A stretch of 64,000 nt of DNA from Bradyrhizobium arachidis (GTDB taxonomy: Bacteria > Pseudomonadota > Alphaproteobacteria > Rhizobiales > Xanthobacteraceae). The stretch covers positions 2,170,001 through 2,234,000 of the forward strand of contig NZ_CP077970.1 in NCBI RefSeq assembly GCF_024758505.1, written 5' to 3'. A model generated the notes under the pieces. It did no database searches and was not told the origin of the DNA. It saw only the letters and a list, made by a program, of their open reading frames with translations. Positions within the stretch are counted from its first letter, which is position 1. Each line of letters begins with the position of its first letter. Below are positions 1-34,972 of this stretch, in pieces. A program made the translations under genes and the position numbers.

Positions 1-1
1 T

Positions 2-640
2 ATCGCCGATACGACGCATCGTCTGGACAAGGCCCGCGCTGACCAGAAGGTCTTCGCCGAGGAGTTTCGTCGCACCACTTATCAGGAACTGGTGGAGACG
101 CTGCCGAAGCGCAACAGCGCAGCAGAGGAATTGAAGAAGGCCGAGCTTCGTCGACAGTTGATCGTCCTGCAGGCGCCGGCAGATGCCGTGGTGCTGGATA
201 TCGCAAATCGGACAGTCGGCTCGGTGGTTCGCGAAGCGGAAACGCTGTTTGTCCTGGTGCCGCGAGACGTGCCTCTTCAGGCAGAGGTCAACGTCGAGGG
301 GCGGGATATCGGTCAGGTGGCGCTTGGACAAGCGGTCCGGATCAAGTTCGAAGCGTTTCCCTTCCAGAAGTATGGAACTGCAACGGGAGAAGTCCGCGTC
401 ATCAGTCAGGACACGTTCTCGCCGGATACGAAGGCCGAAGGTGCGCGCCGCGCGCCAGCTCCCTATTACCGCGTACTGGTCGATTTGTCCGACACGCACC
501 TTCGGCTGCCGCCTGAGCGCATTCAACTGATTCCGGGTATGGCGGTGACGGCCGAACTGAAAGTCGGCAAGCGCACCGTGATTTCCTATTTCCTGTACCC
601 CTTGCTTCGCGGTCTGGATGAAAGCATCCGGGAGTACTAG
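2..640 (+). CDS. HlyD-family type I secretion membrane-fusion protein, C-terminal part (cut by window edge)
   Basis: The frame is open from the first bases of the window, so the N-terminus lies outside; a GTG at 92 is only an internal codon. The visible 212 residues show the end of the coiled-coil hairpin, the lipoyl/beta-barrel part (residues APADAVVLDI, then LIPGMAVTAELKVGKR) and the C-terminal SYFLYPLLRGLDES, which is characteristic of HlyD adaptors of RTX-type exporters. In the family, this periplasmic adaptor joins an inner-membrane ABC exporter to a TolC-like pore. Its partner genes should lie upstream of the window. It is a different subtype from the PrtE-like adaptor at 30686. Confidence 0.9.
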   Translation: MADTTHRLDKARADQKVFAEEFRRTTYQELVETLPKRNSAAEELKKAELRRQLIVLQAPADAVVLDIANRTVGSVVREAETLFVLVPRDVPLQAEVNVEGRDIGQVALGQAVRIKFEAFPFQKYGTATGEVRVISQDTFSPDTKAEGARRAPAPYYRVLVDLSDTHLRLPPERIQLIPGMAVTAELKVGKRTVISYFLYPLLRGLDESIREY

Positions 641-1087
641 GCAATTCGGCGTGGATGCCGGTTCAATGAAGATCAGCTCCAATGCCGGTGCCGGATTCAA
701 TGACCTCATCCGAGGTATACCCGCGAAGGGACCGACAGCTTCAAAGTCGCGAACAAATATCGCCAGATTTCGCCGTCCCGAATACCCGTGCCGAGCTAAA
801 GGAGCGGAACTGAGATCATGGCCGATTTAATCTCACGTTATCCGTTCTGCGACAGGTCGCCTCCAGAATCGCCATCCATTTTTCGCCCCGAATAGCTTGT
901 CGTTGCAAAGGGTTGTGCATTTTAAAATTATAATTAGATAATTTCTTGAAAATAACTGATTGCTCGGTATTATATCATAATAATTAAATTCCATGTTATT
1001 CAAAATAGAATAATGCCGATCGCAAGAGTTATCGAGTCAACCAAGCAAATTCAACATCTCACGCGATTTTTGATCTCTGGTGCAGTT
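641..1087. promoter_or_regulatory. Intergenic region with AT-rich island
   Basis: No convincing gene lies in this 447-base gap. Bases about 911-1012 are strongly AT-rich, with repeated TAATTA/TTAAAT words, in contrast to the GC-rich flanks. The island lies directly upstream of the first polysaccharide gene and probably contains its promoter. Such TpA-rich islands recur across the window and are candidate binding sites for H-NS-like or MucR-like proteins (inference). Confidence 0.5.
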
Positions 1088-2152
1088 ATGTCGAACGACA
1101 CAATTGGAATTGGGGTTATCGGATACGGCTATTGGGGACCGAACCTGGTCCGCAATTTCGCTGCTCATCCTTCGGTACGTCTAATTGGTGTAAGCGATCT
1201 TGATTCGGAAAAGCTCGCGACCAGCAAGCGTCTTTATCCAGGAGTGATAACGACGTCCTGTTACGACGAACTGTTGAAGAACCCAGCCGTCGATGCCGTG
1301 GCCATCGCGACACCGGTTCATACACATTATGAATTGGCACTATCCGCACTCAAGGCGGGCAAGCACGTTCTGGTCGAGAAACCGCTTGCACAGAATTCAG
1401 ATCTGGCCCGACGCCTGATCGACGAGGCGGCTCGGCGCGGTCTGATACTGAGCGTGGACCACACTTTCGTCTACACGCCAGCCGTGCGGAAAATCCGCGA
1501 GCTCCTGCTTAAGAAAGAGCTTGGTAATCTCTACTACTACGACAGCACGCGCGCGAGCCTTGGCCTGTTCCAGAGTGATGTCAATGTGATCTGGGACTTA
1601 GCGGTGCACGACATTTCGATCATCCACCACATCTTGGATGAGGAGCCCGTTGCGGTTTCGGCGACAGGATCGTGCCATGTGGTCGGCTCGCCGGAAAACA
1701 TGGCCCATATCACATTGTTCTTCGATAGCGCATGCGTGGCCCATATTAGCGTCAATTGGCTCTCGCCAATCAAGGTCCGCCAGACGTTCATCGGAGGCAG
1801 CAAGAAGATGATCGTCTATGACGATCTTGAACCGACGGAAAAGATCAAGGTGTATGACAAGGGTATCACCGTGGACGGCCCCTCCGACAACGCCCATCAA
1901 TTCCGGATCGGGTATCGGGCTGGCGATATGTGGGCGCCACACGTCGCCCCAAAGGAAGCGCTGCAGATCGAGGTCGAGCACTTCGTCGATTGTGTGCGTA
2001 GCGGCGCGCGCCCGATTTCGAGTGGCATGTCCGGACTGCGGGTGATCGAGGTCCTGGAGGCTGCATCCCGCTCCATCACAGAGCACGGCAAACCGGTCCT
2101 ACTGAAACGGCAGCCGTACAGGAGCCCGGAACGTGCGACGGCGACGGTTTGA
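1088..2152 (+). CDS. Gfo/Idh/MocA-family NAD(P)-dependent sugar (nucleotide) dehydrogenase
   Basis: The N-terminal Rossmann fold has the GVIGYGYWGPNLVRN dinucleotide loop (residues about 6-20) and the family EKP motif (E97-K98-P99), whose Lys is catalytic in the family. The C-terminal alpha/beta substrate domain follows; total length is 354 residues, normal for the family. I chose ATG 1088 because homology begins there; an in-frame ATG at 1013 would add 25 residues unlike the family. Together with the acyltransferase and DegT aminotransferase downstream it resembles the WlbA/WlbB/WlbC or WbpB/WbpD/WbpE set, which makes a 3-acylamido uronic acid from UDP-GlcNAcA. The exact substrate is inferred from context. 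Confidence 0.9.
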   Translation: MSNDTIGIGVIGYGYWGPNLVRNFAAHPSVRLIGVSDLDSEKLATSKRLYPGVITTSCYDELLKNPAVDAVAIATPVHTHYELALSALKAGKHVLVEKPLAQNSDLARRLIDEAARRGLILSVDHTFVYTPAVRKIRELLLKKELGNLYYYDSTRASLGLFQSDVNVIWDLAVHDISIIHHILDEEPVAVSATGSCHVVGSPENMAHITLFFDSACVAHISVNWLSPIKVRQTFIGGSKKMIVYDDLEPTEKIKVYDKGITVDGPSDNAHQFRIGYRAGDMWAPHVAPKEALQIEVEHFVDCVRSGARPISSGMSGLRVIEVLEAASRSITEHGKPVLLKRQPYRSPERATATV

Positions 2153-2200
2153 ATCATTGGCGGGCGACATTCTATCCGCGAAGAGCGCGACGGTCTCGCG

Positions 2201-3673
2201 ATGAATTCGGTACAACGTTCCATCATGTTTTCGGCGGCCGACCGCTATGGCAGCGTTGTGCTAGTCCTCTTTGCCACCGCGATCCTCGCTCGTCTGCTTT
2301 CGCCGGCAGAATTCGGTGTCTATGCAGTCGTCAGTGCCATCACGACGATAATTGGCGCCTCCTTTTTTGAGTTCGGGGGCGGAAATTATCTGATTCAGAA
2401 GCGCGAATTGTCCACCGCGGACATTCGCTCCGCTTTCACCATCACGCTCGGGATCTCAGTAGCGATTGCGCTTCTGCTGTTCGCACTTGCGGGCGCGCTC
2501 TCGGAGCTCTTCGCCCAGGACAGTCTCAAAAGGGGCATCGAGGTGTCAGCACTGAATTTTGTTCTAGTACCGTTTCACGGGACAATATCTGCGCTGCTGC
2601 GCCGCGACATGAAGTTCGGCACGCTGGCCGTGTGCAACCTGGCGACCGTAGCGGCGACTGCCCTCGCATCGATCGTGCTTGCGATGGCGGGATTCAGCTA
2701 CATGGCTCCGATCTGGGGCGGTTTGGCAGGGGGCACTGTATTCACCGTGATGCTGCTAGCCTGTCATCGTGACTGGAGCGCCCTGCGTCCCTCGCTGCTC
2801 GAACATCGCGAGGTTGTCAACTTTGGTCTTTATTCCAGCGCGGTCAGCGTGATCAATCTCTTCTACAATCTTGCGCCGCAGCTGTTCCTCGCCAAAATCC
2901 TGGATTTTGGATCTGTCGGTCTGTTCACCCGGGCTACCAATCTGACACAGATGTTCGACAGGCTCGTCGCGCAGGTTCTAAATCCTGTCATTATGCCGGC
3001 GATTGTCGCACAACGCAGGGCAGGGGCGGATCTGAAAGCCGTCTATCTCGACGCCATTCAGCTCCTTTCGGCTGTGCAGTGGCCGTTCTTGATTTTTGTC
3101 GCGATCATGGCTCGGCCGATTGTTCTGGTCTGGCTCGGGCAGACGTGGCTGGAAGTAGTTCCCTTGGTGCGCATTCTCTGCATTGCAAATCTCGCGCTAT
3201 TCGCGGCTTGCCTGACCTACCCCGTGTTCCTCGCGGTTGGAAGCGTGCGCGACGCGCTGGTGTCTTCGCTTATCTCGCTACCACCCTCGCTTCTGGTCAT
3301 TCTGTGCGCGTCGTTTTTCGGCGTAGAGGCTGTCGCGGCCGCGGCCCTCGTGACGCTCCCGTTCCAGACAGCCGTGGTGATATATTTCCTCAGGCGGCAT
3401 CTGGCCTTCAGTACAGGAGAGTTTTTCCGTGCCTCGGTGAAGAGCGGCCTGGTGACGTTCGCTATGGCCCCCGGTGTGCTGGCTTGCGCCGCGTTGATCG
3501 AAGCGGGCATGCTCACGTCCCTGACCGGCCTTATACTGTCGTTCCCCATTGCCGGGCTCGGCTGGTGGTGCGGATTGATAATGACCGGCCATCCGCTGCT
3601 GGATCAGCTTCGCCATGCTGCAGGCGGGCTCCTCCGGAGTGCGCCGTGGCTGCGTCGGTCACGTCCGGCATAA
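2201..3673 (+). CDS. Wzx-like polysaccharide flippase (polysaccharide biosynthesis/MATE-like membrane protein)
   Basis: A 490-residue, highly hydrophobic protein with about 12-14 predicted membrane helices along its whole length. It begins with the amphipathic segment typical of the polysaccharide-transport family (SAADRYGSVVLVLFATAILARLL), and a FGVYAVVSAITTIIGA helix follows. Family members flip undecaprenyl-linked repeat units across the inner membrane. It lies 48 bases after the Gfo/Idh gene and 15 bases before the acyltransferase, so it is probably in the same operon. A Wzy-like polymerase occurs at 17755, completing a Wzx/Wzy-type pathway. Substrate specificity cannot be read from the sequence. 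Confidence 0.9.
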   Translation: MNSVQRSIMFSAADRYGSVVLVLFATAILARLLSPAEFGVYAVVSAITTIIGASFFEFGGGNYLIQKRELSTADIRSAFTITLGISVAIALLLFALAGALSELFAQDSLKRGIEVSALNFVLVPFHGTISALLRRDMKFGTLAVCNLATVAATALASIVLAMAGFSYMAPIWGGLAGGTVFTVMLLACHRDWSALRPSLLEHREVVNFGLYSSAVSVINLFYNLAPQLFLAKILDFGSVGLFTRATNLTQMFDRLVAQVLNPVIMPAIVAQRRAGADLKAVYLDAIQLLSAVQWPFLIFVAIMARPIVLVWLGQTWLEVVPLVRILCIANLALFAACLTYPVFLAVGSVRDALVSSLISLPPSLLVILCASFFGVEAVAAAALVTLPFQTAVVIYFLRRHLAFSTGEFFRASVKSGLVTFAMAPGVLACAALIEAGMLTSLTGLILSFPIAGLGWWCGLIMTGHPLLDQLRHAAGGLLRSAPWLRRSRPA

Positions 3674-3688
3674 TCTCGGAGAGCAACC

Positions 3689-4216
3689 ATGCCTATAACG
3701 AAGGATGTAAAACTCGGCCGTGACGTCAGGATATTTCATCCCGATCTGGTCAACCTGTATGGTTGCGCCGTCGGCGACGAGAGCAGGATTGGAACCTTCG
3801 TCGAGATCCAGGCGGGGGCAAAGATAGGTGCGCGTTGCAAGATATCGTCGCACACCTTCATCTGCGAGGGCGTCACGATCGAGGACGAGGTTTTCGTCGG
3901 TCACGGCGTGATGTTCACGAACGATAAATATCCGAAGGCAACAACCGCGGATGGTCGTCCTCAGCTGGCTTCGGACTGGACACTTCAGCGCACTCACGTC
4001 GGTAGGAGAGCTTCCATCGGCTCGAACGCGACTATTCTATGCGGTGTGACGATCGGAGAGGGGGCCTCCGTAGGCGCGGGAGCGGTGGTGACAAAGGACA
4101 TTCCGCCCGGCGCCATCGTCGCCGGAGTGCCCGCTCGGGTTCTGTCGGCAGCTCAAGACACGGTCCTGAGCGCTCGCGGCTCAGCAGAGGTGCTTCAGAA
4201 AGACTATTACCGTTAA
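3689..4216 (+). CDS. Left-handed beta-helix (hexapeptide-repeat) acyltransferase, WbpD/WlbB-like
   Basis: This 175-residue protein is made almost entirely of [LIV]GxxxxI-type hexapeptide repeats (for example VGDESRIGTFVEIQAG, IGARCKISSHT, VGRRASIGSNATI, IGEGASVGAGAVVT). The conserved FVGHGVMFTND segment carries the likely catalytic His (H72). Length and pattern match acetyl-CoA-dependent N-acyltransferases that modify an amino group on a nucleotide sugar. A neighbouring aminotransferase and dehydrogenase would supply the 3-amino sugar. ATG 3689 follows a GGAG-like ribosome site, and the gap after the flippase stop is short. Confidence 0.9.
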   Translation: MPITKDVKLGRDVRIFHPDLVNLYGCAVGDESRIGTFVEIQAGAKIGARCKISSHTFICEGVTIEDEVFVGHGVMFTNDKYPKATTADGRPQLASDWTLQRTHVGRRASIGSNATILCGVTIGEGASVGAGAVVTKDIPPGAIVAGVPARVLSAAQDTVLSARGSAEVLQKDYYR

Positions 4217-4308
4217 TATATATCCGGTCTAAATTTAATGCTTGATTAAATTTAATATTGATATTTAAATGATCGATATAATATCGGTCAAATCAAGGGC
4301 TTTGAATC
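4217..4308. promoter_or_regulatory. AT-rich intergenic island before the aminotransferase module
   Basis: Ninety-two bases that are almost pure A/T, with repeated TTTAAT/TTAAAT words, between the acyltransferase stop and the TTG start of the aminotransferase. A similar AT-rich stretch (about 7690-7795) precedes the relic copy of the same start at 7820. This is consistent with the island having been duplicated together with the module. A promoter or silencer role is inference. Confidence 0.45.
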
Positions 4309-5487
4309 TTGATACCCTTCCTGGACCTGAAAGCACAATATAGCCAGATCAAGCCGGAAATCGACGCCGCGGTGGCGAGGGTTGTCAGTAGCGGACACTT
4401 TGTGCTCGGACCCGAGGTCACGGCCTTCGAGGAACGCTTTGCGGATTATTGCGGGACCGCCCATTGCCGCGCGGTGAACAGTGGCACTTCGGCGCTTCAC
4501 CTTGCCTTGCTGGCGGCGGGCATCGGACCCGGTGACGAAGTCATCACGGTATCCATGACGTTCGTCGCAACGACCGCGGCCATTCTCTACAGCGGCGCCA
4601 GGCCGGTATTTGTCGACGTTGACCCGGTAACATGGACGATGGATCCCGGCTTGATCGAAGCGGCGATAACACCGCGAACCAAGGCGATTCTGCCAGTTCA
4701 CCTCCACGGACTGATGGCCGACATGGATACGATAATGGCCATCGCGCGTCGTCACGGGCTGGTCGTCATCGAGGATGCCGCGCAGGCGCACGGTGCGGAA
4801 TATCGCGGACGTCGCGCAGGCTCGATCGGCGATCTGGGATGCTTCAGCTTTTACCCCGGCAAGAACCTTGGAGCGTTTGGCGAGGGTGGGGCGGTCGTCA
4901 CCGACCGGCCTGAATTCGCGCGCCGCGTGTCACTGCTGCGGGATTGGGGGCAGGAGGCGAAATACGACCACGTCATCCCCGGATACAACTATCGCATGGA
5001 CGAAATCCAGAGCGCGGTACTGAACGTCAAACTGGACTACATTGAGCGCTGGACGGAAGCGCGTCGGTCGCTGGCTGAGCGATACAATGCACTGCTGTCT
5101 GATCTCCCATTCGCACGTCCCCAGCCGCCCCGGTACGCCCGCCACGTGTATCACGTCTATGCGGTCAGATTGGAGCGGCGCGACGACGCGCTGACGCTGT
5201 TGCGTGATGCCGGAATTGGCGCCGGGATTCACTATCCCGTTCCAGTGCATCTGCAAAGGGCGTATGCAGAACTCGGCTATCGCGCCGGTGATCTCCCCGT
5301 CACTGAGATGCTTGCGAACGATTTCCTCTCTCTTCCCATTTATCCCGAGCTGCCGCCGGAACGGGCGGCCGAGGTTGTCGGAACATTGAGGAGTGCGGCG
5401 TCACTGCAGCCTAGCGCAGCCATCAGCACCCGGATGGAGCATCCACAAAGCGACATGGCATGTTCCCAAAACAGGAGAGCGTCTTGA
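4309..5487 (+). CDS. DegT/DnrJ/EryC1/StrS-family PLP aminotransferase (WbpE/WlbC-like)
   Basis: Starts at a TTG codon giving the canonical family opening IPFLDLKAQYSQIKPEI. Other family marks are NSGTSALHLAL (phosphate-binding region), the VIEDAAQAHGA segment (cofactor-contacting Asp) and FSFYPGKNLGAFGEGG, in which K185 should form the PLP Schiff base. At 392 residues it is full length, with a short extra tail (from about ISTRMEHPQ). In the family it transaminates a keto nucleotide sugar, here probably the product of a Gfo/Idh dehydrogenase. Its stop (5485-5487) overlaps the TTG start of the epimerase gene, indicating translational coupling. A decayed copy of its 5' end lies at 7820-7890. Confidence 0.93.
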   Translation: MIPFLDLKAQYSQIKPEIDAAVARVVSSGHFVLGPEVTAFEERFADYCGTAHCRAVNSGTSALHLALLAAGIGPGDEVITVSMTFVATTAAILYSGARPVFVDVDPVTWTMDPGLIEAAITPRTKAILPVHLHGLMADMDTIMAIARRHGLVVIEDAAQAHGAEYRGRRAGSIGDLGCFSFYPGKNLGAFGEGGAVVTDRPEFARRVSLLRDWGQEAKYDHVIPGYNYRMDEIQSAVLNVKLDYIERWTEARRSLAERYNALLSDLPFARPQPPRYARHVYHVYAVRLERRDDALTLLRDAGIGAGIHYPVPVHLQRAYAELGYRAGDLPVTEMLANDFLSLPIYPELPPERAAEVVGTLRSAASLQPSAAISTRMEHPQSDMACSQNRRAS

Positions 5488-6485
5488 TTGATATCAAGGG
5501 TAAACGCGTTCTGGTCACCGGCGGGGCGGGATTCATCGGCTCCCACATCGTTGATCTGCTCTGCGACGAGGGCTGCATCGAGATTGTTGCCCTCGACAAC
5601 ATGATCAGAGGCCGGCCGGAAAATCTCCGGCGCGCGCTCGGGCGTGGGCCGGTAAGGCTGGTTCACGGCGACATTCGCGATCGCAAGCTGATGGAAGCGT
5701 TGGTCAAGGCTGCCGACATCGTCTTTCACCAGGCCGCGCTCCGCATTACTCATTGTGCGGCCGAACCGCGCCTGGCCAAGGAGGTCATGGTGGATGCCAC
5801 CTACGACCTGCTGGAGCTGTGTATCAAGCACGATATTGAGAAGGTCATCGCGGCGTCTTCGGCATCCGTCTATGGCCTGGCCGAGGAGTTTCCGACGACA
5901 GAGCGGCAGAATGCCTACAACAACCGAACTCTCTACGGAGTCGCCAAGGCGTTTAACGAAGGGCTCCTGCGGGCATTCAACGATGCATGCGGCCTCGACT
6001 ATGTCGCATTCCGGTATTTCAACGTCTATGGCAGCCGGATGGACATCCACGGACGGTACACCGAGGTCTTGATCCGCTGGATGGAGCGGCTGGAAGCCGG
6101 ATTGCCTCCCGTTATCTTTGGTGACGGCCGTCAGACCATGGATTTCGTCCACGTCCGCGACGTTGCGCGTGCCAACATCCTTGCGGCCAGGGCAAAGGTT
6201 ACCGATGAGGTCTTTAACGTTGGGAGCGGCACTGAAACCAGCCTGACCGAGCTCGCTACGGTGCTCGCGTCGGTGATGGGACACCGCGGCCTGACACCGG
6301 AATTCGCGCCGGAGCGCTCGGTCAATCCGGTACCACGACGGCTGGCATCGACGGGCAAGGCAGAGCGTTTGCTGGGCTTCCGCACCACTGTTTCGCTGGA
6401 GCAGGGGCTCGCCGATCTCGTGAAATGGTGGCGATCCGAGCGCGAGCTCGCTGCGGACCATCAGCGGCAGGCGGCGGCTTCGTGA
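5484..6485 (+). CDS. NAD-dependent epimerase/dehydratase (extended SDR)
   Basis: Extended short-chain dehydrogenase of 333 residues. It has the N-terminal VLVTGGAGFIGSHIVD nucleotide-binding loop, the catalytic YxxxK pair (Y151, K155, in LYGVAKAFN), an ASSASVYG Ser region and a C-terminal sugar-nucleotide domain (FNVYGSRMDIHGRYTEV). TTG 5484 is preferred: a GGAG lies 6 bases upstream and it overlaps the upstream stop. An ATG at 5460 would add 8 residues but lacks a ribosome site. Likely role is 4-epimerisation or dehydration of a nucleotide sugar. Its stop overlaps a GTG that opens a truncated aminotransferase copy (6482-6603). A relic of its 3' end occurs at 7891-7938. Confidence 0.92.
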   Translation: MIDIKGKRVLVTGGAGFIGSHIVDLLCDEGCIEIVALDNMIRGRPENLRRALGRGPVRLVHGDIRDRKLMEALVKAADIVFHQAALRITHCAAEPRLAKEVMVDATYDLLELCIKHDIEKVIAASSASVYGLAEEFPTTERQNAYNNRTLYGVAKAFNEGLLRAFNDACGLDYVAFRYFNVYGSRMDIHGRYTEVLIRWMERLEAGLPPVIFGDGRQTMDFVHVRDVARANILAARAKVTDEVFNVGSGTETSLTELATVLASVMGHRGLTPEFAPERSVNPVPRRLASTGKAERLLGFRTTVSLEQGLADLVKWWRSERELAADHQRQAAAS

Positions 6486-6603
6486 TTCCGATCGCCATGT
6501 CGCTCCTTGCAGATCAAGAGACCGAAGCGGCGTGCCCAGCCGTCGTTTCCGGTCGGGTGTCTCAGGAGGCAGAGGCGGAACGCGCGGCCGTGCCATCCGG
6601 CTA
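6482..6603 (+). pseudogene. Truncated, decayed 5' end of a DegT aminotransferase (relic copy of the gene at 7939)
   Basis: The frame opening at GTG 6482, which overlaps the epimerase stop as GTGA, reads VIPIAMSLLADQETEAA, continues with VVSGRVSQ, and stops at TAG 6601-6603. The intact aminotransferase at 7939 begins VIPIALPLLAEEEADAA and continues VLSGWVSQ. The first 15 bases of the two copies are identical. About 40 codons survive; the rest of the gene is gone. This shows that an aminotransferase once followed the epimerase here. Confidence 0.8.
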
Positions 6604-6774
6604 GGTTTCGCGGGGTCCGTAGATGGCAGCCTTAGCACGGGTTCGCCGGTGGAATCGGCGGTCGATATCTGCGCCGCACCCGCGCAAGGTCATCATCCTG
6701 TGAGCTGAAGCACCGCGATGAGACTGATCGAACCCAGAGATACGCAAATCTGATCGAGTCCGACCGGGCCAGCC

Positions 6775-7632
6775 ATGATTTCGATCGTCGTCCCAGCCCA
6801 CAACGAGAGTTCCGTGATTGCACGGACGTTGAGCCAATGGGTCGGTACCCCAGCTTCGGACGAGATCCGCGTAGTCGTCGTTTGTAACGGGTGCACAGAC
6901 GACACTGCGAACGTCGCCCGGCGTTTCGGCCCAACCGTCAATGTTGTGGAATCGGACATCGCAAGGAAGACCCACGCTCTGAACCTTGGTGATCAGATCG
7001 CGGACGTGTTTCCGCGGATCTATGCTGACGCCGATATTGTCATTACGGTTGATGCCATTCTGGCTTTGGCACGACGCCTTGATCGAGGTGACGTTTTGGC
7101 GGTGGCGCCTACGGCCGACATCAATCTGGCGGGCTGTTCCTGGCTCGTCCGCAAATACTTCGGAGTGCGGTCGCGGCTGCCGTCTTCGCGCGAGGGCATC
7201 GGCGGTTCCGGCGTCTACGCCGTATCCGAGGCGGGACGCATGCGGTTCGGCCAATTTCCAGACATCACCGCTGATGACACCTATGTTCGACTTCAGTTCA
7301 GAGCAGAAGAGCGGGAGACACTGTCCTGCGTGAGGTCCACGGTATTCGCCCCGCGCACTCTGCTGCAGCTTATCGCCGTCAGAACTCGCGCCTATAGGGG
7401 AACATTCGAACTCGCCCGGCGCTTTCCCGAGCTGCTCGTCAACAAAGGAGCGGCAAATAACCGGGCGCTCATCGCGCTATTCAAAGAACCTCGCCTATGG
7501 CCAGGGTTGTTGATCTATTGCGGGGTAAACATTGTCGCTCGTTACAATGCAACCAGAGGTTACAGACGTGGAGCGGATCTCTGGCAACGCGACGAGACGT
7601 CTCGTGCAGCGCTATCAGATTCAACCAAATGA
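6775..7632 (+). CDS. Family 2 (GT-A fold) glycosyltransferase
   Basis: Begins with the GT2 signature ISIVVPAHNESSVIARTL, followed by VVVCNGCTDDTANVA. The acidic metal/nucleotide-binding motif is IYADADIVI, and a GGSGVYAV segment resembles the acceptor-side region of the family. Length is 285 residues, and a C-terminal hydrophobic stretch (GLLIYCGVNIVARY) may touch the membrane. The family transfers a sugar from an NDP donor to a lipid-linked acceptor on the cytoplasmic face. The gene lies between the two halves of the duplicated aminotransferase module, so it may have arrived or survived during that rearrangement. Donor and acceptor are unknown. Confidence 0.85.
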   Translation: MISIVVPAHNESSVIARTLSQWVGTPASDEIRVVVVCNGCTDDTANVARRFGPTVNVVESDIARKTHALNLGDQIADVFPRIYADADIVITVDAILALARRLDRGDVLAVAPTADINLAGCSWLVRKYFGVRSRLPSSREGIGGSGVYAVSEAGRMRFGQFPDITADDTYVRLQFRAEERETLSCVRSTVFAPRTLLQLIAVRTRAYRGTFELARRFPELLVNKGAANNRALIALFKEPRLWPGLLIYCGVNIVARYNATRGYRRGADLWQRDETSRAALSDSTK

Positions 7633-7819
7633 GAGACCGTAGCTCCGTTTGAGGGCGTCAAGGGTAGGAAATCGGACGCTACATCGGCACGTAGATAACT
7701 TGATCTTAAATGCCCCGTCAGTTAATTTAACTAAAATACCAAACATAAATGCGATTGATTTGAGATTTATATAAAATAAATCGCGATGTCGGATTGCGGT
7801 GCGAGATAGGAATAAGTCC

Positions 7820-7938
7820 TTGATGCCCTTGTCAAGTTTGAAAGCTCAGGATCGCCGGGTCAAATCCGAGATCAATGCAGCGCTAGGTTTGAGCGCGAAT
7901 TGGTCTCGGCGGCTCGCCAGCAAGGGGGCGATAGCTCC
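7820..7938 (+). pseudogene. Fused relics: 5' end of DegT-1 (4309 type) joined to 3' end of the epimerase
   Basis: Bases 7820-7890 match the start of the aminotransferase at 4309: ATG 7823 reads MPLSSLKAQDRRVKSEINA against MIPFLDLKAQYSQIKPEIDA. Bases 7891-7938 match the last codons of the epimerase: ERELVSAARQQ against ERELAADHQRQ, both ending directly before the GTGATTCCGATCGC of an aminotransferase start. The middle of both genes is missing, so a deletion fused them. The result leaves an intact second aminotransferase starting at GTG 7939. Confidence 0.75.
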
Positions 7939-9084
7939 GTGATTCCGATCGCATTACCGCTGCTTGCCGAGGAGGAGGCCGACGCAGCGCGCGCAGCGGT
8001 ACTCTCCGGCTGGGTCTCGCAGGGCCCACAGGTGGCCGCCTTCGAGCGCGACTTTGCGGCCCTGGTCGGTGCGCCTCATGCCTGTGCCGTTTCCAACTGC
8101 ACAACCGCCCTGCATTTGGCGCTCGCCGCCCTGGAGATCGGACCCGGGGACGAGGTTATCACGGCCAGCCACTCGTTCATCGCCACGGCCAATTGCATCC
8201 GGTATTGCGGCGCGACGCCGGTCTTTGTCGACATCGATCCCGGCACCTACAATATCGATCCCAACCGGGTTGCCGAAGCGATCACTCCGCGCACCCGCGC
8301 GGTGATTGCCGTCCACCAGATGGGCATGCCCTGCGATCTGGCAGCCCTTGCCACGCTGGCCGATCGCAATGGCATCGTCTTGATCGAAGATGCGGCCTGC
8401 GCCGCCGGCAGCCAGATCCGGGTGGACGGCGACTGGGAGCGCATCGGCAAGCCGCGCGGGCAGATCGCCTGCTTCTCCTTTCATCCTCGCAAGGTGATCA
8501 CGACCGGCGAGGGCGGGATGCTCACCACCGCTGATGCCAAGCTCGACCACAAGTTCAGGCTGTTGCGCCAGCACGGCATGAGCGTTCCGGACATCGTGCG
8601 GCACGGTTCACCGCAGGTGATCTTCGAGGACTATCTGGTGGTCGGCTACAACTACCGGATGACCGATATACAGGCCGCGGTCGGACGCAAGCAGCTCGAG
8701 CGGCTGCCTGAACTGGTGTCTCGGCGCCGCGTGATCGCGGCGCGCTATGGAGAACTGCTCGGCAACTTTGAAGGCCTGAGACTGCCGGGCGAGCCCGATT
8801 GGGCGCGGTCCAACTGGCAGAGCTATTGCGTGAGGCTGCCGGACTGCGTCGACCAACGCACCGTCATGCAAAGCCTGCTCGATCAGGGCATCGCGACCCG
8901 ACGCGGCATCATGTGCTCGCACCGGGAAGCGCCGTACGCCAACGACAAGCAGCGCCACGATCTGCGGCAGTCCGAGCTCGCGCAGGACAATTCGATTCTG
9001 CTGCCAATCTACGCGCAGATGAGCAAGGAAGATCAGGAGCGGGTCGCCTGTGCGTTACGGAGAGAGCTCCAAGCTTATGCGTAG
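7939..9084 (+). CDS. DegT/DnrJ/EryC1/StrS-family PLP aminotransferase (perosamine-synthase-like N-terminus)
   Basis: A 381-residue sugar aminotransferase with SGWVSQGPQVAAFE, SNCTTALHLALA and IEDAACAAGS. FSFHPRKVITTGEGG carries the Schiff-base lysine (K185). The SGWVSQGP opening resembles GDP-perosamine-type and related 4-amino-sugar synthases; the exact product is not determinable. GTG 7939 is preferred because the paralogous relic at 6482 starts at the same codon. An in-frame TTG at 7900 would translate epimerase-relic sequence. With a formyltransferase at 40380 in the window, a 4-amino or 4-formamido sugar is plausible (inference). Confidence 0.92.
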   Translation: MIPIALPLLAEEEADAARAAVLSGWVSQGPQVAAFERDFAALVGAPHACAVSNCTTALHLALAALEIGPGDEVITASHSFIATANCIRYCGATPVFVDIDPGTYNIDPNRVAEAITPRTRAVIAVHQMGMPCDLAALATLADRNGIVLIEDAACAAGSQIRVDGDWERIGKPRGQIACFSFHPRKVITTGEGGMLTTADAKLDHKFRLLRQHGMSVPDIVRHGSPQVIFEDYLVVGYNYRMTDIQAAVGRKQLERLPELVSRRRVIAARYGELLGNFEGLRLPGEPDWARSNWQSYCVRLPDCVDQRTVMQSLLDQGIATRRGIMCSHREAPYANDKQRHDLRQSELAQDNSILLPIYAQMSKEDQERVACALRRELQAYA

Positions 9085-9197
9085 CAAAAGGCCGCGTTAC
9101 TCAAAGGTCGCGACGATGTCAGTTTGCGGGATAAAAGAAAGCAATCCAATTTCTAGCGATAGCAAGCTAATGGCTCAGGAATAGGCGGGTTATTTCA

Positions 9198-10355
9198 ATG
9201 CAAAAGCCGCTCGTTAGCTTTGTCGTTCCTTGTTACCGACTGGCCTCTCTCTTGCCGGAGTGTATCGCCAGCATTCTCTCGCAGACCTTTGAGGACTTTG
9301 AAATCCTCATCATGGATGATTGCTCTCCAGATGACACGGGAGAAGTTGCCAAAACATTCACAGATAGCCGAGTTACCTATGTCAGGAACGAGCAAAATCT
9401 GGGAGCGCTCCGGAATTACAACAAGGGGATACGTTTAAGTCGGGGGAAATACGTCTGGCTTCTATCGGCTGATGATCGCTTGCGCCAACCGTACATACTG
9501 CAAAGATATGTCGAAACCTTGGAAAGTCATCCGGAAGTCGGCCTCGCCTTCTGTCCAGGGATTAGCCTGAGAGGTGGGAAAGAAGGTGGAGTGATAGATT
9601 ACTCGACCTATGGCGACACTGATAAGATCGTCAGGGGAGAGGAGATTATCAAGCACTCATTGAAGGTAAAAGGAAATGCAATTCTGGCTGCGTCGGTGCT
9701 TGTTCGACGTGACTGTTATGAGAAATTGAGCCTCTACCCGGTCGACGTAGTGTGGGCTGGAATTCCAGTCGACTTTATATGGGGCGGGGATTGGTACGTG
9801 TGGCTATTGTTCTCCTTAAGTTATGACGTCGCATATTTTGCAGAGCCGATGGTGTGTTATCGAGAGCACGAACTCAGTATGACAAACGCCATTACTCAAG
9901 AAAGGATCGACATCTGCTGGCACTCCGAGCTGGCCGTGATTACGATGATATCGCAGGCGGCTAAAGAAAAAGGCGCCCTAACAGTGTATAGGGCTTGTTT
10001 GGATGCGCTTGCCAACTTCTATGCTAAACACTGTGCGTCCAAACCCTACGCGTGGATGGGACAGACATCCTGGTCCACTATAGATTTCCAGCAAGTGGAA
10101 TCGACGCTCGATCGTAGTCCTTATACCGAGCAGGAGAGAGCGTGGATCCGTTCACGCATCATGGTGGCACTGGCTGATCTCTATTATTCAAGGGGCGACT
10201 CTGTATCAGCGAGATCATATTACTTGAAAGGATTGAAGCTGAAGCCTTTCATGTTGCCGGTACTTTTTAAGTTGATTGTTCTTTCATTCGGCGGTCCAGG
10301 CCGGCTAGTTCGCGAGTTTCTGCGATCCGCTCGAGATCATTTGGTGCGGGGCTGA
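9198..10355 (+). CDS. Family 2 glycosyltransferase
   Basis: GT2 catalytic domain at the N-terminus: VSFVVPCYRLASLLPECI, ILIMDDCSPDDTGEVA, NLGALRNYNKGI, and the LLSADDRL motif serving as DxD. It has 385 residues; about 150 C-terminal residues beyond the GT domain end in a hydrophobic helix (FMLPVLFKLIVLSFGG). Codons are visibly more A/T-rich than in the upstream genes, as in the next gene, suggesting that this two-gene block came from another source. ATG 9198 is the first in-frame start after an intergenic gap of 113 bases. Confidence 0.87.
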   Translation: MQKPLVSFVVPCYRLASLLPECIASILSQTFEDFEILIMDDCSPDDTGEVAKTFTDSRVTYVRNEQNLGALRNYNKGIRLSRGKYVWLLSADDRLRQPYILQRYVETLESHPEVGLAFCPGISLRGGKEGGVIDYSTYGDTDKIVRGEEIIKHSLKVKGNAILAASVLVRRDCYEKLSLYPVDVVWAGIPVDFIWGGDWYVWLLFSLSYDVAYFAEPMVCYREHELSMTNAITQERIDICWHSELAVITMISQAAKEKGALTVYRACLDALANFYAKHCASKPYAWMGQTSWSTIDFQQVESTLDRSPYTEQERAWIRSRIMVALADLYYSRGDSVSARSYYLKGLKLKPFMLPVLFKLIVLSFGGPGRLVREFLRSARDHLVRG

Positions 10356-10407
10356 TCGAAGGATCAGTTTCCGTGTTTAACTGACTCTTTTAAGCGCTGT
10401 ATATTCG

Positions 10408-11685
10408 ATGAAGAAGACCCTAGTGATCAGCGACAGGTTTCCTCTGCCTGAGAAGTCTGGTGCTGACATCAGAACCATGAATCTAGCAAGGTACTTTGCT
10501 AGCCTTGGGCCAATCGATATTGCGTATCTCTCGAACTTGCACTCCGGTTCGGTACACGCGGAAGGAGCGGAGGAAGATTTCGAGAAGGATGACATATTTT
10601 CTGGGAAGTATCGTTTGCAGAAGCTGGAGTACCCTAGCAGTTTGCGAGGTCGGTTCGGAATTTCGGTTCGTGGCTTTCCGTATCCTGTTAGAGAGTATAG
10701 CAAAGCCTCGATGGAGAAATTGTTCTCTCTAATAGAGTCTGGCGGCTACGATTATGTGCTGGTGCGGTACCTCCGTAATACTGGCGGGTTTTTCGGCTTG
10801 TCACAAATCGCGAAAAGGAAGGTCATCATTGATATTGATGACGTACTGACCCATTCGCTCTATGATACGCTGTTTGCACCGACGAATAATGCTTTGAGGA
10901 TGCTCTTCCGCACCATAAATAAGGTGCTTCTGGCTTACTATCAAACTCGTTGTGTGACGGTCTTTGGCGCCTGCTTAGTATGTTCTGAGAAGGACAAGTC
11001 AGATCTGTGGGGTGAACGGGCCTCTGAAAGTACCTTCGTTGTACCAAACACGTTGGGGACGAGAGCTCCAGGCGAACTCCGCATGGAGAGCGGGTTCAAT
11101 AGGCGACACGTCTTGCTGTTTATTGGTGCGCTTCACTATCAGCCTAATGTTAGCGGCTTACTCTGGTTTTTGGAGAGCGTGTATCCGCGCTACAGGAATG
11201 TGTATCCCGATGCCGTTCTTTTGGTTGTTGGACGTTGCCCGTTGCCAGAGGTAATCGAAGTTTGTGATCGAACACAGGGAGTCGAGTTGCACCCCGATGT
11301 CCCTGATGTCATCAAGTACTACAGAGATTGTAGAGCGGTTATTGTACCTCTACTTGAGGGTAGCGGAACGCGGTTGAAGGTTCTGGAGGCAGCGCTGCTG
11401 GATAGACCCATTATTTCTACAAAGAAGGGTGTAGAAGGATTGGATGTAGTCTCTGGCGTTCATTTTTTGGAATTCGATGATGGCCCTAGCTTTTGTGAGG
11501 CCTATCGAACTTTGAGCGACGAAGCGACCTATGACGCGCTGGTGACAAGGGCTGAAAATGTAGTTCTGGAAAAATATTCACACAGCACCCTTTCTACTTC
11601 AATGAGCAAGGTGGTTTCTTATATCGATTTCAAGAGCAGCGAGTTTTCGTCCCTTTTTTCCAGGTCCCATGCTCCCGCAGGGTAA
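10408..11685 (+). CDS. Family 4 (GT-B fold) glycosyltransferase
   Basis: 425-residue GT-B protein. The N-terminal domain has DRFPLPEKSGADIRTMNLARYF. The C-terminal nucleotide-sugar domain includes LLFIGALHYQPNVSGLLWFL, VVGRCPLPEV and LLEGSGTRLKVLEAALLDRPI with GVEGLDV, the equivalent of the family EX7E motif. This arrangement is similar to retaining GT4 enzymes of exopolysaccharide clusters. A/T-rich codon use matches its upstream neighbour and differs from the rest of the locus. It lies 52 bases after the preceding glycosyltransferase and is followed at once by an IS66 remnant, consistent with acquisition through mobile DNA. Confidence 0.87.
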   Translation: MKKTLVISDRFPLPEKSGADIRTMNLARYFASLGPIDIAYLSNLHSGSVHAEGAEEDFEKDDIFSGKYRLQKLEYPSSLRGRFGISVRGFPYPVREYSKASMEKLFSLIESGGYDYVLVRYLRNTGGFFGLSQIAKRKVIIDIDDVLTHSLYDTLFAPTNNALRMLFRTINKVLLAYYQTRCVTVFGACLVCSEKDKSDLWGERASESTFVVPNTLGTRAPGELRMESGFNRRHVLLFIGALHYQPNVSGLLWFLESVYPRYRNVYPDAVLLVVGRCPLPEVIEVCDRTQGVELHPDVPDVIKYYRDCRAVIVPLLEGSGTRLKVLEAALLDRPIISTKKGVEGLDVVSGVHFLEFDDGPSFCEAYRTLSDEATYDALVTRAENVVLEKYSHSTLSTSMSKVVSYIDFKSSEFSSLFSRSHAPAG

Positions 11686-11689
11686 CCTT

Positions 11690-11945
11690 CCCGAGCGCCG
11701 GCAGGATCGAGATCGACTCCAACATCGTCGAGCGGGCCATCAGGCCGCAAACCACCACAACAAAAGCGCGCGCTTCGCGGGCATCCCGGCGGCGGCCGGG
11801 CCTTGGTTACCATCGCCACGCTGCTGCGAACCGCGAAGATAAATGACGTCGACCTGCATGCCTGGCTCAAACAAACTCTCGAGGAGGTCGCGCAGGGTTG
11901 GCCGATCTCTCGGATCGACGCAATGATGCCTGGCACTTCAAAGCC
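11690..11945 (+). mobile_element. IS66-family transposase (TnpC) remnant, 3' end, frameshifted
   Basis: Bases about 11695-11760 read RIEIDSNIVERAIRPQ, the conserved IS66 TnpC segment. After a frame change the sequence continues as ALVTIATLLRTAKINDVDLHAWL, then TLEEVAQGWPISRIDAMMP, matching the TnpC C-terminus. The frame breaks, the absence of TnpA/TnpB and the missing bulk of TnpC make it non-functional. It separates the A/T-rich glycosyltransferase pair from the reverse-strand methyltransferase. Confidence 0.75.
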
Positions 11946-11982
11946 TCAACGGACTCAACTCGGCGCTTACGGCGATCCAGTC

Positions 11983-12897
11983 CTAAGCAGCCTTCAACAG
12001 GAATGCGACCTGATCTCCCTGTTGTTCGATATTCAGCTTTGCCGCTCGGTTGGCAAACCTTCTCAACTCCCGGCGGGTAAACACATCGTTTGGCCCGGAT
12101 GATGCGAGCGGCTTGGAGTTCCGGTACATTTCGCTCCCCCAGAACTGAAACGCGGTAGAATCGTCGATTGACTGCCTAACAGATAAACCGCAGCGCTCCG
12201 CCAATGCATTCATGCCCTTGCGCGAGGGAATCACAATGTGGCGCGGAGCATCCAATTGCACCCAGTTCGGGCCGTACTCTCTCCATGCATGCGAGGACGA
12301 AGTTGGGATGCGAACCAGAATGCGGCCGCCGGGCGCAAGTAGCCTTTTTGCATTGCTAAGACTTTGGTCCGGCTCAGGCACGTGTTCTAACGAGTGATTG
12401 AACATGATGAAATCAAACTCGCCGGACATACTCTGAAGATCCGATTTCTGAATCCTCACGGCACCTGACGTTGGCTTGAGAATGTAAGGGTCTACTCCCG
12501 TAAGGTTCTTGAACCCCGCGGCAGACATTCTATGAAGAAGTTTCCCGGACCCGCAGCCTACGTCCAGCACCCGAGCGCTAGGATCAATTCCAAAATTTCC
12601 GATGACCGCTACGATAGGGTCGTACCTCAAAAGGGATGCCACGGCTCCCAATATGCTTCTGGTGCCGAGTGCGTGGGCGTCCCTGATTGCGGCAACTCGC
12701 GAATTTCGCGAAGGCTTGGCGAATGAGTAATACCCATCGGGGTAAAGGCGGCTCTCATCGGCCACATCCGACAGGCGCTGGATCGTCCCGCAATCAATAC
12801 ATTCTTGGTACTCAAACCGCTCTCTCGTGCCAAACATCATCTCAATAAACACGTGGCGGCGATGTTCGCTGTCTGACGAGCAAGCTTTACAAATCAT
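11983..12897 (-). CDS. Class I SAM-dependent methyltransferase with N-terminal zinc-ribbon-like Cys pairs
   Basis: 304 residues. The N-terminus has two CxxC pairs (CKAC and CIDC) typical of methyltransferases of sugar-modification clusters. VLDVGCGSGKLLHRM (about residue 109) is SAM motif I, and NHSLEHVPEPDQSL followed by LLAPGGRILVRIPT gives motifs II-III. The family methylates nucleotide sugars or glycan termini. It is the only gene transcribed leftward in this part of the cluster. No strong ribosome site precedes the ATG; a small 81-codon reverse-strand frame (13152-12907) ends 9 bases upstream and could be its leader, but has no recognisable homology. Confidence 0.85.
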   Translation of the reverse strand: MICKACSSDSEHRRHVFIEMMFGTRERFEYQECIDCGTIQRLSDVADESRLYPDGYYSFAKPSRNSRVAAIRDAHALGTRSILGAVASLLRYDPIVAVIGNFGIDPSARVLDVGCGSGKLLHRMSAAGFKNLTGVDPYILKPTSGAVRIQKSDLQSMSGEFDFIMFNHSLEHVPEPDQSLSNAKRLLAPGGRILVRIPTSSSHAWREYGPNWVQLDAPRHIVIPSRKGMNALAERCGLSVRQSIDDSTAFQFWGSEMYRNSKPLASSGPNDVFTRRELRRFANRAAKLNIEQQGDQVAFLLKAA

Positions 12898-14024
12898 ATC
12901 GAGTACCTAGCCGGAGCAGGGGATCGAAGCGGGCTCAGCCAGCATCGGAGAAGCGTGAGCGGGTGTGGGCGTTGTTGCTATGATAGTCGCGGCGAAATTA
13001 ATGAGCCCGTCGATACCGTTGCCTGCGGCCTGGTCGCTCTTCCGAGACCCGCTGATCGGGTCACGGGTGCTGTCACTTTGCAGCAAATTCATTTGAAGCA
13101 TAGGGGTGCTCGCTCGCCCATCTGTTGATCTCGCCGGCCCGATGGCCCGCACGTGGTGCTGATGCTCTAGCCGAGACTTGTGCGCTTGGAATAAATGTAT
13201 CGAATAAAACCAACGTCGTCAAAATTAAACAATGCTGATTTAATTCAATTCGTTCGATTGAATTCCAAGGAGAGTGCTGGAGGTCCTTCCTCGCTGCGGG
13301 GCATCCAACCTCGAGAGCCAGGTTCCCGTCAGGCGGATGACGACTTTGCCTCCCAGTTCTATGGGATCATCGCCCCGGCTGTTGAATGGGCCGATTTGGC
13401 GGCGGAGCTGCGGCAGCTGGCGCGGAGCCCCTGCATAGACAGCCCCAATTGCGGTCCGGATGGAGGGCGAACTCGGACGGGGTGGTCTATCGGTCAGCGA
13501 GTCTCTTCACTCAGCCCAAACTAATTCTGCATAAAAGGCGAATTTAACCAAAATCGACGCGGGTCGAATTTAATTAGATAATAATTGAAATTAAAAAGAG
13601 ATCTATTTATGTTTACGGAGGCGAGGAGCTTTCCGACTTGGTTGAGGACATCAATATCAATGAAGGGTCGTCTTGCGGTTGATAGGCGGTATGAAATGCC
13701 GCTTGCGACCACGCCGAGATCTATTGTGGACGCAGACAGAAGCGGCAAGCAGTCGGAATTTCATGTGCTTGCGGACGGCGTGTCCGACGGAATCCGAAAA
13801 AGGACAGTTACTTCGCTAGCCGAAGGGTCGGCTTCTTTCGGATCTGGGATGATGCTGGGGCGACCATTAACTACATTCTTGCCTTGCGCGCGGAGGCATC
13901 GTGCAAAGGTCTGCCGAACCAACCGGGGAGGATCGGGTGCAAGCTTGCATCGACCTTTCCCTAACGGCGCTTTGCTCAAAAAGAGTCGTCGGGCATCCCA
14001 CATCTACCTCGGAGTTTCCGTGCC
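12898..14024. other. Gene-poor stretch with AT-rich islands and a decayed coding relic
   Basis: Two AT-rich islands (about 13190-13260 and 13525-13610) flank a GC-rich stretch with an unrecognised 109-codon frame (13195-13524). From 13605 a frame opens MFTEARSFPTWLRT and runs to 14031. Its part GKQSEFHVLADGVSDGIRK matches an equally decayed segment at 16566-16640. The relic has no recognisable family. I see no functional gene here with confidence. Confidence 0.5.
13563..13815 (+). repeat. Copy A of a duplicated leader-plus-relic segment
   Basis: An AT-rich leader ending in ATCTATTTATGTTTACGG is followed by coding-like sequence whose last part contains GGAATTTCATGTGCTTGCGG. Copy B at 16405-16640 has the same order: an AT-rich leader, TTTATCTATGTTTTCGG, then GGAATTTCGTGTGCTTGCGG. 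Similarity is patchy, with indels between. Each copy lies shortly upstream of a polysaccharide gene (methyltransferase 14025; glycosyltransferase 16653). Confidence 0.6.
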
Positions 14025-14987
14025 ATGTTAACTAAAGAGCGACAGGCCATCAATGTGGTGCCGGTGGCCAAGTGCAATAATTGCGGATCGCTGGAGTACG
14101 GCGTCGTTTTTGAGGCCGGAAGCGCGCAGGTCAATCAAATCGTCCGATGTGGAGGTTGTGGGTTGATGTACGCGTTCCCCATGAACACACGAAATTTGTC
14201 GCAATATCTGAACGACTCGCCATCGACCCTGACGGATCAGAGCAGGCAGGTCAAACATACAGCGGACAAGATGCCGGACTATCGAGCTATGGCACGCCGT
14301 CTGGAGGAGTTTCTACCTCGAAAGGGCGCGCTCTGCGAAATCGGGATCTATTCGGGGGTGCTGTTGGATTACTTGCGTTCGCGCGGGTGGACGGTTTCAG
14401 GGATCGAGCCCGACGGCTGCGCTGTGGGCTACGCCCGACGCGTCTTCGGACTTGATGTCCATCACGGCACGTTGGACAGCGCTTCGCTTAAACCCGAGTC
14501 CATCGACGCGGCGATCATGCTGCATGTGATCGAACATTTGGATGACCCAGCGCGCGCGGTCGTTCAAGTGCATCGCGTTCTCAAGCCCGGCGGCTTTTTT
14601 GTGGTCGAGACGCCGACTTACGATTCCTGGACCTTCAAGATCCTTGGGCGGCGGGAACGCAGCGTCAGCTGCGACGGGCACATCTTCTTTTACACCCAAA
14701 AGACTCTTTCCGCTTTGTTGCAGCAGCACGGGTTCGAAATCGTTAAAACCCAGCGGGTAGGGCGAACGATGTCGCTGAGTCGGCTGTTGTTCAACATTGG
14801 TGTCATGGCGAAAAACAGAAAAACCCAGGATCGGCTTGCGGCCCTCGCGACGTCGCTCGGTCTTGAAAAATACTACGTCTACCTCAATGTTGGGGATATG
14901 GTGCGGATATACGCTCGCAGGGTGAGCTCGGGCAGCGACGAGCATGCCATGCACCAACGCTCGATGGAATTTGAGCGCGGCGCTTGA
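14025..14987 (+). CDS. Class I SAM-dependent methyltransferase with zinc-ribbon N-terminus
   Basis: 320 residues. Cysteines C17, C20, C42 and C45 (CNNC and CGGC) form a putative zinc ribbon, followed by a Rossmann methyltransferase core: ALCEIGIYSGVLLDYLRSRG as motif I, GIEPDGCAVGYA, MLHVIEHLDDPARAV and VLKPGGFFVVETPTY. The layout matches methyltransferases that act on nucleotide sugars or glycans in O-antigen clusters. ATG 14025 has a GGAG about 10 bases upstream. It is paralogous in architecture, not closely in sequence, to the reverse-strand gene at 11983. Confidence 0.87.
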   Translation: MLTKERQAINVVPVAKCNNCGSLEYGVVFEAGSAQVNQIVRCGGCGLMYAFPMNTRNLSQYLNDSPSTLTDQSRQVKHTADKMPDYRAMARRLEEFLPRKGALCEIGIYSGVLLDYLRSRGWTVSGIEPDGCAVGYARRVFGLDVHHGTLDSASLKPESIDAAIMLHVIEHLDDPARAVVQVHRVLKPGGFFVVETPTYDSWTFKILGRRERSVSCDGHIFFYTQKTLSALLQQHGFEIVKTQRVGRTMSLSRLLFNIGVMAKNRKTQDRLAALATSLGLEKYYVYLNVGDMVRIYARRVSSGSDEHAMHQRSMEFERGA

Positions 14988-15111
14988 AGGGCACAGCATC
15001 TGTCATAGGTCACCCGCGGCGCCCATCCGATACGACGTGCGGTGCCGACGGAAAAATCGCGTGGTCCGCGGATGAGATTAAACGATTGGCCGACTTGCTA
15101 AGCGGGGAGCC

Positions 15112-15921: not shown

Positions 15922-16099
15922 GGACGTACGAGTTTGCGGTGTTGGTCACAAACCGAAGTCCGTGCCTTGCCACATCCCGGTCCGCTCCAACCGCTGAAAG
16001 CGGACCATACGGTGACCCGAGTAGATGCGGCATGCCAGGCGATGCGGGACCGATTTCCAACTCGATGCGGCCTACGAGAACTTCGAAGCCCTTGCGGGA

Positions 16100-16330
16100 C
16101 GTTCTGCACCGCGAGCACTGGCGGACCAGCCGGGAACATATTTTCAACCACGCCTGCTCCATTCGCCAGCGCGCAAGCCCGAAGATCGAGGCTTCACCAT
16201 GGCACCGGCTGCGCAAGAACGCTGGCATGGAGTTGGCCGAGGCCGGCGCCGAGGTGATTGGAAACCATGGCCGTGGTGGGTCACAAGATGCCCAAAATGG
16301 CAAATGGAACGAAAGTGAGGCATCTCTTTT
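16100..16330 (+). mobile_element. Tyrosine recombinase/integrase remnant (C-terminal end, frameshifted)
   Basis: One frame reads HRLRKNAGMELAEAGAEV, matching the HGLRKTAAxxLAEAG catalytic R region of tyrosine integrases. Immediately downstream, in another frame, MAVVGHKMPKMANG matches the MAVLGHxxxxMA histidine motif. A frameshift separates the two, and no complete catalytic domain or tyrosine is left. The surrounding 15922-16400 stretch holds no other gene I can recognise. Confidence 0.65.
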
Positions 16331-16404
16331 GGAACAGTGACTTTATCGGACGCCACGAAAAATAGTTAAATCGGAATTTAAATTAACCGCACATGAAGGG
16401 CGGC

Positions 16405-16640: not shown

Positions 16641-16652
16641 AGGTCCGGCGTG

Positions 16653-17657: not shown

Positions 17658-17754
17658 AGCGCTTCTTAGGACGGGACGGTCGCTTTATGCGACGCCTCAA
17701 TTTTGAGGGCTGTTTCCCGGTTGCGGAATGTCTCAGGCATGAGAGGTCTTCGCG

Positions 17755-19167: not shown

Positions 19168-19267
19168 CAGGCGTGCCAAGCGGAGAAGCCGGCCTTTCCA
19201 GCAAAGGTGACCTAAGTGATGGGCAGGCATGCCGATCAGGATTTCTCGTGCTGCGCAGGACTAAGCC

Positions 19268-34951: not shown

Positions 34952-34972
34952 GGGAGGTCTCCTCAATACTCT

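Follow-up and report, generated by a model that had tools for sequence, protein, structure and literature searches.

Surface-polysaccharide loci change fast, and the path of a reshuffling is usually inferred from gene order alone. In the part of the published account that bears on this question, the galactose-initiated O-antigen clusters of Salmonella are described as mosaics of blocks with different histories that contain gene remnants; the genes concerned had been made redundant, and one recombinant form carries a remnant element at its joint (PMC3715488). Tandem duplication-random loss (TDRL) with remnants is known for mitochondrial gene orders, according to the relevant part of a second source (PMC5569537), and joint action of PssD and PssE as one glucuronosyltransferase has been proposed for Rhizobium leguminosarum, in the portion of that work concerned with this pair (PMC1403797). 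Here we describe a locus from Bradyrhizobium arachidis (contig NZ_CP077970.1, positions 2,170,001 to 2,234,000 of the forward strand; these 64,000 nucleotides are referred to as the window) in which pieces of two aminotransferase genes, degT-1 and degT-2, and of an epimerase gene stand beside the intact genes. We read it, with a probability of roughly 60%, as two versions of a nine-gene surface-polysaccharide locus that were juxtaposed head to tail, pruned in complementary places and re-mixed. Since fragments of four genes survive at different stages of decay in relatives, the path between gene orders becomes readable. Literature searches returned no publication on this locus, a weak negative.

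The locus and its fragments

Family matches predict a surface-polysaccharide gene cluster, and degT-1, the epimerase, a GT2 glycosyltransferase (GT2a) and degT-2 are open frames carrying the expected domains. The features are listed below by position in the window, gene names resting on Pfam family matches; copy 1 and copy 2 denote the two putative versions of the locus, and a prime marks a fragment.

1013..2152, + strand: gfo, Gfo/Idh/MocA-type dehydrogenase, copy 1 (PF01408, E 3.2e-25)
2201..3673, + strand: flippase-type polysaccharide exporter, copy 1 (PF13440, E 4e-59)
3689..4216, + strand: hexapeptide acetyltransferase, copy 1 (PF00132)
4309..5487, + strand: degT-1, intact, copy 1 (PF01041, E 3.2e-128)
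5460..6485, + strand: epimerase/dehydratase, intact, copy 1 (PF01370, E 1.5e-53; start at 5460 or at TTG 5484)
6482..6571, + strand: first piece of the degT-2 relic, covering codons 1 to about 31 (alignments; start overlaps the epimerase stop)
6572..6650, + strand: second piece of the degT-2 relic, overlapping the first and covering about codons 12-40 (68/77 with the L140 relic)
6651..6774, + strand: GT2a leader, common to loci with a cassette between epimerase and degT-2 (alignment)
6775..7632, + strand: GT2a, GT2 glycosyltransferase, putative first gene of copy 2 (PF00535; gene orders of relatives)
7633..7818, + strand: AT-rich stretch at the site of pssD and pssE in relatives, both absent here (gap length; no match)
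7819..7882, + strand: degT-1 relic, about 21 codons, copy 2 (alignments)
7886..7938, + strand: epimerase-end relic, copy 2, abutting degT-2 (match to the L038 epimerase end)
7939..9084, + strand: degT-2, intact, copy 2 (PF01041, E 1.6e-112; tree conflict with the epimerase)

For comparison, 265 genomes of the genus were searched for degT-2 at E <= 1e-100, weaker relatives of the gene being left uncounted. The gene is present in 55 of them, the window's own included, with one match each, and gene order was read by tblastn in all 54 relatives. From a second set of 80 loci, 20 were read for gene order; six repeats among these (L055, L056, L057, L059, L061, L062) were left out of the trees and rankings. 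Individual loci are given as L numbers.

The GTG that starts the degT-2 relic (6482) overlaps the epimerase stop TGA at 6483-6485, and an overlap motif, TCGTGA or TCATGA, is found at the start of the intact degT-2 in 43 of the 55 loci over which it was counted. The alignment of 6438-6578 with 7891-8035 (100 identities, 41 mismatches, 4 gap positions) scores 51, whereas none of 300 dinucleotide-preserving shuffles exceeded 18. Against 69 degT-2 genes the median score of the relic was 31.5 and the highest 50 (own degT-2 41), as compared with a median of 11.5 and a highest score of 16 against 62 degT-1 genes; on these scores the relic behind the epimerase is degT-2 and not merely DegT-like. The initial annotation had proposed such a relic, of about 40 codons at 6482-6603. 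Its origin is borne out by the scores; its end is not, for the similarity extends beyond the TAG at 6603 as far as about 6650. After codons 1-31 the relic restarts at about codon 12 and reaches about codon 40 (6572-6650). Codons 1-12 of the first piece are nearest to the relics of L036 (35/36), L140 and L037 (34/36 each), the window's own intact degT-2 ranking 18th of 67, and 12th for the whole first piece; the second piece is nearest to the L140 relic (68/77), own degT-2 being 43rd of 67. An origin of the first piece as a local tandem copy of the second is not favoured (22 of 48 positions agree). A second degT-2 elsewhere in the window's own genome was considered and rejected: a DNA search with degT-2 returned four matches, namely degT-2 itself, the relic, degT-1 and one 90-base match (73%) at another site.

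Ahead of the intact degT-2, 42 of 64 positions agree between 4308-4371 and 7819-7882 (score 20, shuffle maximum 16), a modest result taken alone. This relic scores a median of 19 and a maximum of 28 against degT-1 genes (own degT-1 19) and a median of 10.5 and a maximum of 14 against degT-2 genes, which identifies it as degT-1; the own intact degT-1 ranks 31st of 52. Checked in this way against unrelated DegT genes, each relic clearly prefers its own DegT type, and a chance origin of the relics is rejected by the shuffle controls together with the comparison of degT-1 and degT-2 scores. Between this relic and degT-2 lies the epimerase piece. The stretch 7891-7938 had been taken for the last codons of the window's epimerase; against that gene it is no better than chance (score 10, shuffle mean 10.4, maximum 17), and it is against the epimerase end of L038 that the assignment holds, 34 of 42 positions of 7886-7927 agreeing (score 26, shuffle maximum 14; controls for the relics compared with or found in L038, L036 and L037 were single-base shuffles scored against 12 genes, those internal to the window keeping dinucleotides). 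Otherwise the relics stand within a few bases of where they had first been placed, and in copy 2 the intact degT-2 directly follows the epimerase-end relic. The degT-1 leader of copy 1 agrees with the AT-rich stretch before the degT-1 relic at 27 of 36 positions (score 12, shuffle maximum 14.5), which provides no evidence of a shared origin; the best degT-1 leader of other loci, that of L149, gave 57/77 and a score of 20, a figure chosen as best of many with no control for that choice.

Related loci and the shared scar

Epimerase and degT-2 are adjacent, with a gap of at most 109 bases, in 36 of the 54 relatives; this is the unsplit order that the initial annotation had proposed to seek in related genomes. 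In another 15 the two genes are separated by 1.0 to 2.5 kb that hold GT2a and/or pssD-pssE, while L177 has 167 bases and no cassette. In L050 and L143 degT-1 and the epimerase are inverted and placed downstream, away from degT-2. In these two loci, oriented with degT-2 on the plus strand, about 19 degT-1 codons stand in frame directly before degT-2 codon 2 (at about 9319 in L050 and 8934 in L143); from this chimeric start, the locus may thus have broken and rejoined near the degT-1 and degT-2 starts more than once.

In the window, and likewise in every one of the 15 cassette-bearing relatives, the epimerase is followed by a degT-2 5' relic. Among the relatives, eight relics are detected by tblastn (L035, L036, L037, L049, L054, L140, L141, L142; L049 at E 0.002) and seven by alignment or reading alone (L041, L042, L044, L046, L051, L053, L138), those of L041 and L042 comprising only about 12 codons. 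The eight translated relics that were read differ in stops and frame breaks. On the other side of the cassette, degT-1' is clear in the window and L037, and epimerase' in the window, L035, L044, L046, L049 and L051. For the epimerase pieces of L044, L046, L049 and L051 the own epimerase ranks 7th, 30th, 6th and 24th of 67, and in two of these four it nearly equals the best match.

The cassette itself varies in content and in position. From GT2a to degT-2 there are 309 bases in the window, 879 to 1193 in L035-L037 and 1135 to 1146 in L044, L046, L049 and L051, and in the larger gap an Alg14/PssD-type gene stands ahead of a decayed PssE-type one. No match to pssD or pssE was found within positions 1-20000 of the window, and none to pssE upstream of gfo; the window's branch has lost both genes at this locus. 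All seven window-type relatives carry a stop-free pssE upstream of gfo in addition to the decayed pssE behind pssD. In all seven the decayed gene is closest to the pssE of loci whose cassette separates the epimerase from degT-2; the own intact pssE ranks 8th to 16th of 21. In L054, L141, L142, L138 and L053 both pssD and pssE are matched at full or nearly full length. The leader of GT2a at 6651-6774 agrees at 100/121 positions with L140 and at 112/122 with L035.

Elsewhere the cassette genes stand upstream. In the U-type loci L038, L040 and L047, pssD-pssE lie upstream of gfo with GT2a ahead of the pair, complete in L040 and fragmentary in L038 and L047; the full order in L040 is GT2a-pssD-pssE-gfo-flippase-acetyltransferase-degT1-epimerase-degT2. 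Only GT2a occupies the upstream site in L039 and L135, a Nitrobacter metagenome-assembled genome (L058) has pssD-pssE upstream and GT2a downstream, and in L136 pssD-pssE lie behind degT-2. Thus the glycosyltransferase, first described as now sitting between two copies of a degT-epimerase-degT module, does not behave as a later arrival: in relatives it accompanies pssD-pssE, either ahead of the operon or in the interval from epimerase to degT-2.

Some further features of these loci were noticed. In coordinates of the oriented loci, the matches to degT-1 in L042 (5411-6498) and to degT-2 in L154 (9680-10811) each fall into two parts, suggesting that the frame is broken there, and L053 has a further open frame of about 290 residues between pssE and degT-2 (7620-8772). 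The window's only other good match to pssD/pssE is a second PssE/PssD-like pair at 34973-35904 on the minus strand, with overlapping frames, 39 and 47% identical to the L054 pair; the adjoining frame 33842-34966 reads, by reading alone, like a Gfo/Idh/MocA dehydrogenase. Directly upstream of the polysaccharide locus, a very large repetitive protein of about 2430 residues is encoded in the window's own genome (L155 1364-12641, running into the window) and in L159 (6723-17946), followed in both by frames that resemble an ABC transporter and an HlyD-type protein, named by reading alone. A promoter scan gave 2 sites where 1.7 were expected and none ahead of degT-2, so that no claim on expression is made.

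Origin of the permuted order

First trees were made from loci with a long enough match, and 28 chosen loci were then used for trees submitted to the approximately unbiased (AU) test. In the epimerase tree the window, L035, L036 and L037 group with the unsplit L150 (support 97). Constraining the degT-2 tree to hold these five as a group carries a cost of 81.7 log units, with a p-AU of 0.0002 that is optimistic, the AU groups having been named after the first trees were viewed, though the difference is large. A grouping of the window group with L150, L147, L148 and L152 was rejected (p 0.0037); all eight window-type degT-2 as one clade, which the tree splits in two, were not (p 0.186). The intact epimerase and the intact degT-2 thus have different histories.

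In the reading that we prefer, the starting order would be that seen in the U-type relatives and given above for L040. Two versions of this locus, which would have differed in lineage from the outset and not have been mixed afterwards by allelic exchange, would have come to stand head to tail. Copy 1 would have kept gfo to epimerase and lost degT-2 save for its 5' end; copy 2 would have kept GT2a, in relatives also pssD, and degT-2, losing gfo, flippase and acetyltransferase without trace and leaving pieces of pssE, degT-1 and the epimerase in that order. The result would be the permuted order degT1-epimerase-(degT2')-GT2a-[pssD-pssE]-(degT1'-epimerase')-degT2. Read across the window's group, the remnant order pssE', degT1', epimerase' of copy 2 is the U-type gene order. 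The observations behind this reading are the relics and the order in which they stand, the relatives' gene orders and the tree conflict. Of the duplication with complementary loss put forward in the initial annotation, what endures is the pair of complementary relics at a junction kept twice; the unit was not the three genes proposed, for relatives show a larger one with GT2, pssD and pssE, and a duplication inside this genome is not supported.

A more specific version of this proposal, which we hold only tentatively, is that the operon was permuted by duplication and loss between diverged versions of itself, and that the junction of epimerase end and degT-2 start served as a joint more than once. 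The double relic of the window's group, codons 1-31 joined to codons 12-40, supports repeated use of the joint, and the codons 12-40 piece looks like an older relic; L050 and L143, with degT-1 codons fused before degT-2, show another joint. If true, each of the two copies would have supplied one of the intact proteins PssD and PssE in the window's relatives, and their enzyme would be a hybrid of both.

Several results, in addition to the optimism of the AU p-value, weigh against a juxtaposition of two versions. An intact duplication, which the initial annotation had hoped to find in other strains, was seen in none of the 55 degT-2 genomes among the 265 searched, each having a single match at E <= 1e-100. 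No single genome shows pssE', degT-1' and epimerase' all clearly: the degT-1' of L036 is weak (19, shuffle maximum 16), its best alignments lying off the gene start, and the epimerase tail of L036 and L037 scores no better than chance (17 and 19, shuffle maxima 17 and 19.5). No gfo, flippase or acetyltransferase relic was found in copy 2. Ahead of copy 1, where the duplication model predicts one, there was no GT2a or pssD relic at E <= 1e-2 in the window, searched upstream of gfo, or in seven relatives, searched upstream of pssE, seven of these eight stretches being merely 595 to 1470 bases long and that of L044 5375. In the same stretches, weak matches (E 0.001 to 0.008) to degT-2, gfo and minus-strand pssE in L044 and to the epimerase in L036 were taken as chance. 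For pssE and pssD, the AU tests leave the choice of source undecided (p 0.12 to 0.71). Relics nearest to genes of other species would also be expected of an in-situ duplication older than these species, and the cassette can occupy the gap between epimerase and degT-2 with no relic seen, as in L063 (Rhodopseudomonas palustris 2.1.18) and L075 (a Tardiphaga metagenome-assembled genome), both with pssD-pssE there.

The main rival is that illegitimate recombination placed the GT2a-pssD-pssE cassette, with or without its own degT-2, in the 5' end of a degT-2 already resident, so that the relic was left behind and no second copy of the whole locus ever existed. In L054, L138 and L053 the relic is of one degT-2 type (IALPLLADE) and the intact gene of another (IAKPCLD or IAKPFLD), the intact gene grouping with those of the relic-free L063 and L075; the glycosyltransferase leader moves together with the cassette, and cassettes occur at several sites, upstream, between and behind degT-2. 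Such an insertion leaves unexplained the degT-1 and epimerase pieces before the intact degT-2 of the window's group. Nor does it account for the two pssE genes, one intact upstream of gfo and one decayed behind pssD, that all seven window-type relatives carry, and we consider it unlikely, though a serious competitor.

Decidedly less probable is an in-situ tandem duplication in the ancestor of these species, followed by complementary loss and a later exchange of degT-1 and epimerase between species. It would yield the same relics in the same order, and it keeps some probability because orthologous relics would also be nearest to each other. An extra exchange would be needed for the mismatch of relic and intact degT-2 types in L054, L138 and L053; in the FastTree tree the pssE that lies upstream in the window's relatives leans towards the U-type loci (0.85), a point on which the AU test does not decide; and no duplicated genome is seen. 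That the three-gene module was duplicated recently, in the lineage of the window itself, as the complementary relics inside one genome might suggest, is highly improbable: unless the relics are convergent, it is refuted by their occurrence at this site in 15 further genomes. The relic rankings, in which the relics are not nearest to the own genes, and the conflict between epimerase and degT-2 trees also speak against it. Complementary relics that pair up neatly in one genome can have another source than a recent duplication there.

Comparison with described systems

The finding is real and instructive, yet it is an example of an already known kind of reshuffling. The PssD/PssE pair resembles that of R. 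leguminosarum, as far as the part of that source dealing with it allows, in that the L054 proteins match the NCBI PssD and PssE models (69.3 of 110 and 108.5 of 120 bits, below the curated cut-offs), and also Alg14 and GT28 C-terminal domains; unlike in that pair, the intact partners stand apart in the window's relatives, pssE being found ahead of gfo and pssD after GT2a (PMC1403797). As in TDRL, in the portion of the mitochondrial work that treats it, the order would have been altered through a second copy and complementary loss, with remnants as evidence; unlike there, the setting is a bacterial operon, the trees of the intact parts conflict and no duplicated intermediate is seen (PMC5569537). 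The precedent is the Salmonella O-antigen clusters, within the part of that account drawn on here: the present locus, too, is a mosaic with remnants in which neighbouring genes have conflicting trees. The Salmonella remnants are mainly of wzy and of a junction repeat element, whereas here they are of two aminotransferase genes and an epimerase, and, unlike in the Salmonella case, they mark both ends of a permuted gene order (PMC3715488).

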